Assembly: GCF_002287075.1 (NCBI RefSeq)
Contig: NZ_NSKE01000001.1
Span: forward strand, 310,001-374,000
Direction of reading: 5' to 3'
Source: Fodinibius salipaludis
GTDB lineage: Bacteria; Bacteroidota; Rhodothermia; Balneolales; Balneolaceae
Length of the DNA stretch: 64,000 bases
A program made the translations under genes and the position numbers. The notes beneath the pieces are model-generated. The model ran no database searches, was not told the origin of the DNA, and was given only the letters and a program-made list of their open reading frames with translations. Numbering within the stretch: the stretch's first letter is position 1; each line of letters opens with the position of its first letter. Positions 6,411 through 8,714 of this stretch are shown one piece after another.

Positions 6411-7490
6411 CTATTTCTCTTGGATTAACCATTCCACTGTATCCACCCCATCGGGTTTCCAATCTATAGCAGGCTGCTGAGCATTTGATAGATGCTCTAC
6501 TTCCAAATCCCGATCAGCCAGATCAATCTCGGAGTCTGTTACGTAAATACTCTGTAGCTGATCACGATAGGTTGTAGCCAGCTCTTTGAGTTTTGACTCG
6601 TCACCCTCTATCCAGTAGCAGACAAAATCCTGATCCAATTCCAAGCCTCCCTCCTGCAGTAAAAAATACTCCAACCATAACTGCGAGCGTTCAACAGCTT
6701 CGTTATAGGCAAACTGCTGTTTTATCTTTGGGGATGGATATTCGTGCTGGGGATTTTCGAGCCAGAAACTTTTTGCGTGATTTGTCAGCTCCGCTTTAAG
6801 TTCAGCCAGTGAAAAAGGAGAAACTATAATAGCCGCCGATCGGCAGCCTTTCCCGCCATATCGAAATATTGCCTCCGTCAATGCTTGCAGGGCCTCCTCG
6901 TCTTTTCTATCGAGATAAGCCATTGAAAAATGAGCTGTACGAATCAAAAACCGGGCATCGGGCTTGGCTAAATCCAGCTTTTGAATGGAGTTTTTCACGC
7001 CCGACACGGATGATTCTGATCCAGCAAAGATAATGGCATCATGAGGCATTCCTTCAAAATCATCCAGGCGGTGGGTCCACTGTACATCGCGGTCGGACCA
7101 TAAATCCGTCTTCTTTACTTCATTCAGAAAAGTCGGCAGCAGGTACGGGTCTTTACGAGAAATTTTACCCGTATAACGTGCACCGCTCAACAATGTGGCA
7201 AGGGCATCCTGAAAACCAACCAATGGCAAATTTCCGGCATGCAGACACAGTACATTTTGGTCGGATGCATCATGCTTGTCATTCAATCCAGCCTGTTCGA
7301 CCCACTCCTCTATTGCTAATATGCTAATACTTTTCTTTATAGCCTCAATAGCATAGTTAATATCCTCAAAACTGAAATAGCCCTCTCTTACTGTTCGGTC
7401 GATGGCATCTTTTAAATATAGATTATCATCTGACAGCCAGTTTTCAGTAGCTTTAATTAAGGTATCTATTCGTTGTTGAGTGTCTGTCAT
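6411..7490 (-). CDS. LuxC-like fatty acyl-CoA reductase
   Basis: The 359-residue protein matches the LuxC / acyl-CoA reductase family, relatives of aldehyde dehydrogenases that reduce activated fatty acids to aldehydes with NADPH. Visible marks are HAGNLPLVGFQDAL at about 84-97, the central FAGSESSVSG stretch, and GGKGCRSAA around residue 216, where the cysteine sits in the expected position of the acyl-accepting nucleophile. The gene lies just downstream of a LuxE-like acyl-activating enzyme on the same strand, so the two probably work in sequence: activation of an acid, then reduction. No luciferase (luxAB) or LuxD is nearby, so light production is not implied. In other Bacteroidota similar pairs occur without luciferase; their product is uncertain. 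Confidence 0.83.
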   Translation of the reverse strand: MTDTQQRIDTLIKATENWLSDDNLYLKDAIDRTVREGYFSFEDINYAIEAIKKSISILAIEEWVEQAGLNDKHDASDQNVLCLHAGNLPLVGFQDALATLLSGARYTGKISRKDPYLLPTFLNEVKKTDLWSDRDVQWTHRLDDFEGMPHDAIIFAGSESSVSGVKNSIQKLDLAKPDARFLIRTAHFSMAYLDRKDEEALQALTEAIFRYGGKGCRSAAIIVSPFSLAELKAELTNHAKSFWLENPQHEYPSPKIKQQFAYNEAVERSQLWLEYFLLQEGGLELDQDFVCYWIEGDESKLKELATTYRDQLQSIYVTDSEIDLADRDLEVEHLSNAQQPAIDWKPDGVDTVEWLIQEK

Positions 7491-7590: not shown

Positions 7591-8649
7591 TTAATCTTCA
7601 TCAATTAAAAAATTACAGCCTCGCAGGTCTCGAGGATTCCAACGTCCCAGTACTTTAAAACGCCCGTCTTTATCCATAACACCTTTATCACCCGTCAAAA
7701 GAAAAGAGCAACTATGCACATTTGCGAGATCAATGACGCCAATTAATCCTTCCTCATATGGCGGCAGAATTTCATTCGGGTTCTCAGGGTTACGGATGGT
7801 AACCTGCATCCACGGGACCGTAGAAAACCATTTTCCCGTAGCATAGGCCTGACTCAATAACTCGGCCATACCATACTCAGAATGAATGCGACTACCGTCC
7901 AATCTAAACCCCTTTGCCAGTCGGCGATGTAACTCACTGCGAGAAATTTCTCTTCGATGAGTTTTCATTCCCCCCGTCTCAATTACAATGCTGTTGGATG
8001 GCAAATTAATATCATCCATCTCTAACAAATCCAACAATCCAAAGGCAGCCCCGAATAATATTAACTGTTTCCCCTGCCGCTGCACTTCTTTAATCGCACC
8101 GGGATTCACCGGCTCACCCAGTGGCAAGAAGCGACTCAACCCACTGTTATCCTGATCAATAAGCTTCTGGATCATATAGATCAGCGACGAATGCGGATTG
8201 TCCGCATACCCGGGTGTATAGCCCCAGATAACGGCATTATCAAGATTGTAAAAATGCCGAAACCCTTTTAACAGCGATTTATCGTAAAGTTCAGGATTAT
8301 GCACCCGATGGATACTCCGCTGCATATCTGAGGTACCGCTGCTTTTAAAAATAAGTTCAGCCTCTGCATCAGTCCTGGTCGTCACATCCGCGTCCTTGAA
8401 TGCCTTTATAGGTAACAGTGGAATACTTTCCCTGTCATCCTGAACTCGTTTCAGGATCTCCGAATCATTATTTTGAGTCGCATGAGATTCCGAAACAAGT
8501 TCGGAATGACGCGAAGTTTTTATTTCATCCAGTGCCTCACAATATCTCCGATACACAGGATTCTGCTCGAACTGGTATTCAAAAACCTGTTTGGCTTTCT
8601 CTTTAAATGAAAGCGTATCCGAAAAAATAATATTTGCCCAATCTTTCAT
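7591..8649 (-). CDS. LuxE-like acyl-protein synthetase / acyl-activating enzyme
   Basis: This is a 352-residue member of the LuxE family (adenylate-forming enzymes that activate fatty acids with ATP and pass the acyl group to a protein or partner reductase). Marks are LIFKSSGTSD at about 99-108 (phosphate-binding loop), the central GYAD...SSLIYMIQ region and HSEYGMAELLSQAY near 260-275, the usual A5-like motif. The start at 8649 gives MKDWANIIFSD, which fits relatives; an ATG at 8685 would add twelve residues of different character. Residues 47-73 are encoded by a palindromic repeat inserted in frame (see 8433-8511), between the helix ending VYRRYCEALDEI and the strand IPLLPIKAF. The reductase gene follows after 100 bases. 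Confidence 0.82.
   Translation of the reverse strand: MKDWANIIFSDTLSFKEKAKQVFEYQFEQNPVYRRYCEALDEIKTSRHSELVSESHATQNNDSEILKRVQDDRESIPLLPIKAFKDADVTTRTDAEAELIFKSSGTSDMQRSIHRVHNPELYDKSLLKGFRHFYNLDNAVIWGYTPGYADNPHSSLIYMIQKLIDQDNSGLSRFLPLGEPVNPGAIKEVQRQGKQLILFGAAFGLLDLLEMDDINLPSNSIVIETGGMKTHRREISRSELHRRLAKGFRLDGSRIHSEYGMAELLSQAYATGKWFSTVPWMQVTIRNPENPNEILPPYEEGLIGVIDLANVHSCSFLLTGDKGVMDKDGRFKVLGRWNPRDLRGCNFLIDED
8433..8511. repeat. Palindromic repeat element inserted in frame inside the luxE-like gene
   Basis: The arms at 8433-8460 and 8484-8511 are inverted copies of each other over 28 bases, with about six differences, all C/T when the arms are aligned. Read on the gene strand it gives HSELVSES...EILKRVQDD, and on the other strand the near-identical CHPELVSGS...IPKQVRND. 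I recognise this peptide pair from repeat elements that are usually intergenic in many bacterial genomes. Here the reading frame stays open through it. Confidence 0.85.
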
Positions 8650-8671
8650 AACTAATTCTATTATAACACTG

Positions 8672-8714
8672 ATGACACAGGTCATTACGAGTAATCACAG
8701 ATATTTATCTGTGA
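8672..8714. promoter_or_regulatory. Two small palindromes between purB and the luxE-like gene
   Basis: TCACAGATA and TATCTGTGA form a perfect 9-base inverted repeat with a 2-base centre at 8695-8714. A shorter one, ATGAC-ACAG-GTCAT, lies at 8672-8685. Neither is followed by a T-run, so an operator for the luxE-luxC pair or a weak purB end are both possible. Confidence 0.35.

Follow-up and report, generated by a model that had tools for sequence, protein, structure and literature searches.

The window analyzed here is a 64,000-nucleotide stretch of DNA (C1:310001-374000) from a 3.58 Mb draft genome in 39 contigs, referred to below as G000. Its minus strand carries a LuxE-like gene and, downstream of it, a LuxC-like gene (Table 1). 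The open reading frame of the former spans 7591-8685, from which we took the ATG at 8649 as the start, and a profile search matched its product to PF04443 with an E value of 6.7e-13. Matches to LuxE are present in all 58 genomes of our comparison set, and a luxC-like gene lies beside luxE in 20 of the 20 regions compared. A purB-like neighbor adjoins the luxE–luxC-like pair in 13 of the 20.

Table 1. Features of the luxE-like locus, with positions in the window
Feature	Position	Strand	Description
LuxC-like acyl-CoA reductase family gene, downstream neighbor	6411..7490	-	PF05893, 35.5 bits (cut-off 21)
Host gene, LuxE-like acyl-protein synthetase family	7591..8649	-	352 aa, frame intact; PF04443, 48.7 bits (cut-off 24.9)
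Complete element, a tagged-palindrome dimer with outward tags	8433..8511	-	codes residues 47-73 of the 352-aa LuxE-like protein
Inner arm	8433..8459	+	tag TGTC on the + strand, stem ATCCTGAA/TTCAGGAT, loop CTCGT; gene reads the - strand as ILKRVQDD
Spacer between arms	8460..8484	-	unlike the spacer of G004 and G002
Outer arm, first read by the gene	8485..8511	-	tag CGTC, stem ATTCCGAA/TTCGGAAT, loop CTTGT; codes RHSELVSES

The initial annotation had placed a palindromic repeat in frame inside the luxE-like gene. The coordinates it gave are right, and the frame is open throughout. The 25-base cores of the two arms lie at 8435-8459 (+) and 8485-8509 (−), and two more tag bases on each side extend the element to its full limits. 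Each arm matches the half-site pattern described below without a mismatch, and each stem pairs at eight of eight positions. When the 28-base arms (8433-8460 and 8484-8511) are aligned as inverted copies, 22 of 28 bases are identical. All six differences are transitions, but they are not only C/T changes as had been noted: on a given strand four are C/T and two are A/G; four of the six make up two compensated stem pairs. The 89-nt transcript segment here has a fold energy of −39.9 kcal/mol, whereas its shuffles average −20.5 (z −6.25), and none of the 200 was as stable. A repeat search of the window at seed 7 did not list the arm pair, Rfam at gathering thresholds gave no match in the window, and the peptide signatures of the arms had no match in the literature searched.

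Codon arithmetic from the ATG places the insert at residues 47-73; in place of the earlier figure of about 27 added residues, the net gain is about 23-25 relative to outgroup loops of 11-13. The only solved relative of the protein that we found, 7xc6 chain E (E 2.5e-20 with profile A1), aligns with a six-residue length gap in the insert region, which fits a loop that may tolerate changes in length. A structure prediction from the window protein together with L066, L067 and L068 had a mean pLDDT of 35.2 and a pTM of 0.23 and was discarded, so that the surface loop between a helix and a strand suggested in the initial annotation is a putative one. A literature search for papers on LuxC–LuxE structure gave nothing relevant among the matches listed.

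The repeat family and its distribution

Allowing two mismatches at most, the half-site pattern has 60 matches in G000 and none in a backwards control. These half-sites occupy 47 places, 13 of which are pairs, and in all 13 pairs the tags point outward. The consensus reads (A/G)TGTC, stem AT-N-CTGAA, a loop of five, stem TTCAG-N'-AT, and then CT. The tag letters T, G, T and C occur in 56, 58, 59 and 57 of the 60 half-sites, respectively, and the luxE arms carry one CGTC and one TGTC tag. Stem pairing is complete (8/8) in 46 half-sites, with 7 pairs in 13 and 6 in one, statistics that are to be read knowing that the half-sites were preselected by a pattern with no more than two mismatches. The first two stem pairs are A-T in 59 and T-A in 57 of the 60, while the variable pair (positions 4/20) covaries as C-G in 31, G-C in 14 and T-A in 12. 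The five-nucleotide loop is CTTGT in 23 half-sites, CTCGT in 11 and TTTAT in 11; after the stem, C and T are found in 56 and 57 of the 60, followed by A or G in 48. Two features of the luxE outer arm are rare: the CGTC tag occurs in two and a CCGA stem in three of the 60, and the CCGA variant is found in four of the 30 half-sites of the related genome G004.

We also observed a long-arm form in which a second hairpin (CCCGATGTGTCGGG type) sits within the loop of an outer 8-bp hairpin. It occurs in G000 at L050, L062, L079 (two), L081 and L088 and in G004 at L141, and therefore some apparent single arms may be unequal pairs. Positions of the element are inherited outside luxE as well: by our own count, ten of the 47 places in G000, among them luxE, are matched by an element at the corresponding place in G004. 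At two shared places (L046 versus L141 and L082 versus L158) the two arm types appear by eye to have changed places, which would fit an inversion of the pair or a replacement of its arms, and at a third (L051/L160) one genome has a C-G stem pair where the other has G-C.

We read all 47 places in G000 together with roughly 1.5-2 kb of flanking sequence in both directions. A frame of at least 90 aa covers the element at four of them. Besides luxE these are L039, with opposite-strand frames of 322 and 407 aa to its two sides; L051, seven codons from the 5′ end of a 417-aa frame and by eye before its likely start; and L079, where the frame is 95 aa only. None of the three is credible as a genic copy, and therefore luxE is the only credible one among the 47 places, in agreement with the earlier view that such repeats are normally intergenic. 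Among 30 loci read in G004, the element is covered by luxE and by one frame of 105 aa (L166).

A longer pattern, searched with up to three mismatches in 58 related genomes, is present in 20. It occurs in 11 of the 12 genomes of the genus (89 matches in G003, 71 in G002, 64 in G000, 41 in G008, 38 in G004, 23 in G006 and one in G001, versus none in G011), has a scattered presence elsewhere in the family (9 of 23 genomes), and was found in none of the 23 genomes outside it. We considered an origin from a Y1_Tnp (RAYT-type) transposase, but neither linkage nor co-occurrence supports it. Y1_Tnp genes occur in 30 of the 58 genomes, yet no match was found in G002, G004, G006 or G008 despite their numerous repeats, and within 1.5 kb of the five Y1_Tnp genes of G000 there is no convincing half-site, the only match having five mismatches and looking like a chance one. 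One weak Y1_Tnp gene and a repeat dimer lie about 1.6 kb apart (C4:107439-107783 and C4:109407-109472 of G000); the other four Y1_Tnp genes are not close to a listed half-site.

The insertion site in related genomes

We assembled luxE loci from 30 genomes including G000 and scored 29 of them, 12 from the genus and 17 from other genera; L018 was left out because its contig begins after the insertion site. The arm score in each loop was judged against 400 shuffles. Full dimers are found in G000, G004 and G002, with loops of 36, 35 and 35 residues. G006 has a decayed element in a loop of 28 residues with both ends recognizable by eye, and one genome, G007, keeps the outer arm in a loop of 23 residues. 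Loops with an inner arm measure 17 residues in G008, 17 in G003 (where the arm is decayed) and 15 in G009. G010, G001 and G011 have loops of 17, 15 and 15 residues without a clear assignment, and the six-residue loop of G005, which has no arm, is too short to score. Altogether the inner arm is recognizable in 7 of the 12 genus genomes, decayed in two of them, and in all seven its end lies 11 bases ahead of one and the same proline codon.

In eight of the 12 genus loops (G000, G004, G002, G008, G007, G006, G003 and G009) the arm scores better than all 400 shuffles. For G001, G010 and G011 the number of shuffles as good as the real loop is 7, 81 and 114 of 400. In contrast, none of the 17 loci from other genera has a clear arm; 15 of them have loops of 10-13 residues, one has 17 and one, in G021, has 38. 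Two of these outgroup loops, L027 and L016, are equaled by 2 and 9 of 400 shuffles by chance (78 or more for the others), so the 7 of 400 for G001 is no evidence of an arm. G021 is near the genus, and its 38-residue loop lies at the luxE insertion site without a trace of the repeat. We rejected this loop (L013, before PLFP) as an older carrier since 337 of 400 shuffles score as well. The expectation that close relatives would lack the segment was borne out only in part, in that outgroup homologs have no clear arm but congeners hold full, halved and decayed copies at the same site. On the homologs compared, the luxE insert is not private to this genome.

Within luxE the hairpins vary in quality. 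The outer arm pairs at 8/8 positions in G000 and G007, at 7 in G002 and at 5 in G004, and the inner arm at 8/8 in G000, G008, G009 and G002, at 7 in G004 and at 6 in G003 (wobble pairs counted). This unevenness among relatives indicates that the hairpins were not kept everywhere once within luxE.

Phylogenetic trees were built from luxE without the loop, luxC, rpoB (G008 excepted) and a neighbor that we take to be purB, as well as from three concatenated sets. The three concatenated trees all gave support of 100 to a clade of G000, G004, G008 and G002 and to the pair G003 and G010. Single-gene trees back the four-genome clade less strongly (73-89 where G008 is present), and how G009, G007, G005 and the G001+G011 pair branch relative to one another has weak support and varies between data sets.

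Outside the loop, pN/pS in luxE is 0.12-0.18 for the three pairs of dimer carriers (G000, G004 and G002), so the LuxE-like enzyme is kept by purifying selection. The inner arm in six species has a pN/pS of 0.40 versus 0.18 elsewhere, and so the arm peptide is less constrained than the enzyme.

History of the insert

Taken together, these data favor, at a probability of roughly 70%, one in-frame insertion of a dimer in the ancestor of the genus followed by trimming through in-frame deletions. A dimer of a CGTC-type tagged repetitive extragenic palindrome (REP) would have entered the luxE-like gene once, in an ancestor common to the whole genus (probably Fodinibius, Balneolaceae), in a loop between a conserved 'AL' and 'PLLP'. 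It would have stayed coding because the frame used passes both arms without a stop and the loop tolerates changes in length. Later lineages would then have shortened the insert by whole codons: G008, G009 and G003 (the last probably together with G010) would each have lost the outer arm, G007 most of the inner arm and G005 everything, and other copies would have been worn by point changes. The simplest reading is a single gain at the root of the genus with about six in-frame losses or decays, counted by eye. From these comparisons we infer that there was a single event, that the enzyme tolerates the insert near-neutrally, and in which direction the changes ran.

Several observations weigh against this reading. 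The arms in G000 match the family pattern without a mismatch although the gene is old, and they look fresher than the age of a genus ancestor predicts. The spacer of G000 is unlike that of G004 and G002, which resemble each other; part of the branching order is weakly supported; G010, G001 and G011 have no clear assignment; and G021 has a long loop with no arm signal. One explanation is a hotspot at which the codons before PLLP received dimers or single arms repeatedly, with for example G000/G008, G004/G002, G007 and G009 as independent events. This would account for the differing spacer of G000 and for arms that stay close to the consensus in G000, G008, G007 and G009 when synonymous sites in the rest of luxE are saturated, and a like doubt is raised for Rickettsia palindromic elements RPE-4, -6 and -7 in the available sections of PMC3767692. 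However, the inner boundary is identical in all seven genomes, the CCGA stem variant of the outer arm is common to G000, G004 and G002, the partial or decayed copies in G006 and G003 resemble the remains of dimers, and with a single one of 47 places in G000 lying in a credible gene, repeated insertion at one codon would be odd. We therefore regard repeated insertion as unlikely.

Another explanation is that the arms of one old insertion were repeatedly restored from other repeats in that genome, either through gene conversion or through renewed insertion into the old copy. Synonymous changes between G000 and G004 number 4 of 12.8 sites in the arms versus 140.8 of 204 in the rest of luxE (P 0.011), and between G000 and G002 4 of 12.3 versus 151 of 203 (P 0.005), while the spacer of G000 is saturated (pN 0.61-0.65 against G004 and G002, versus 0.06 between those two). 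Slow arms beside a saturated spacer in G000 are not predicted by plain descent, and the arms may have been rewritten by other copies. The swapped arm types at L046/L141 and L082/L158, the opposed stem pairs at L051/L160 and the 60 half-sites in G000, against 30 by the same pattern in G004, are in line with such copying. On the other side, the comparison of G004 with G002 has no such synonymous excess (P 0.22), and the G000 outer arm combines the rare CGTC tag with the rare CCGA stem, so that no typical repeat can have been its donor. Third positions of the inner arm alone fall below P 0.05 in 4 of 21 pairs and above it in 17 (the pairs are not independent). Copying into a single old insert thus appears to us quite unlikely.

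More generally, it is conceivable, if improbable, that this protein loop has been rewritten again and again by genome-wide palindromic repeats, with other copies taking the place of its arms or imposing their sequence on them. If so, the enzyme would carry a module that can be renewed and resized, changing one whole arm at a time over the genus, in which the dimer codes similar peptides in either orientation. That the open frame is an artefact of a wrong start, a broken gene or misassembly is highly improbable even for a draft in many contigs. Ahead of the insert there are conserved residues, and the alignment to the solved LuxE starts at profile position 7; independent assemblies, some with contigs labelled uncultured Aliifodinibius, have arms at this site too, and the frame has no stop.

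Comparison with known palindromic repeats

By its described features rather than by consensus letters, the luxE repeat fits the superfamily of CGTC-tagged REPs. As given in the available sections of Di Nocera et al. (2013; PMC3733652), these have a CGTC or TGTC tag, stems of 8-9 bp starting with AT and loops of 4-5 nt; they form dimers, are mostly intergenic, have no dedicated transposase and occasionally lie within genes as dimers coding 20-30 residues. Our family resembles the type with an 8-bp stem and a 5-nt loop in tag, AT stem start, stem, loop and dimer formation, in being mostly intergenic with an occasional coding dimer, and in showing no association with a transposase, judged here on Y1_Tnp alone. 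It differs from what those sections describe in two respects. The short unpaired tail is CCA in most, not all, CGTC REPs, whereas here it is CT followed mostly by A or G; and the host here belongs to the Balneolaceae. Dimers of CGTC REPs are mostly HH; all 13 pairs here have their tags outward, an arrangement that may or may not be the HH one. RAYT-linked GTAG REPs are likewise paired short palindromes and mostly intergenic, but they carry a GTAG tag, which is not found here, and our family has no Y1_Tnp linkage within 1.5 kb in G000.

The luxE element is a further case of already described coding palindromic repeats. Such inserts are best known from Rickettsia, and a genus of the Balneolaceae is now added as a host group. 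What is new is an arm-by-arm series of one enzyme across one genus, in which the insert is full, halved, decayed or absent. The series opens two long-standing questions to test: are such inserts neutral to the protein, and are genic copies of a repeat remnants of old insertions or do other copies renew them?

The Rickettsia precedent invoked in the initial annotation is an apt one, since the available sections of PMC3733652 equate RPE-6 and RPE-4 with CGTC families and so place them in the same superfamily. From what is accessible of PMC3767692, RPE-4, RPE-6 and RPE-7 are also in-frame coding palindromes with inserts at the same locus in orthologs, and their frequent ATGAC motif is the reverse complement of the GTCAT found here; in contrast to the one place of 47 in G000, many of their copies are genic, and the hosts are unrelated. 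The RPE case is covered as well in the part of the review PMC10969869 at hand. A parallel for the protein is a Rickettsia guanylate kinase that stays active with its RPE insert (Abergel 2006, as described in the accessible part of PMC2229807): there, as apparently here, an enzyme carries an old insert, its activity being measured for the kinase and presumed for the LuxE-like protein.
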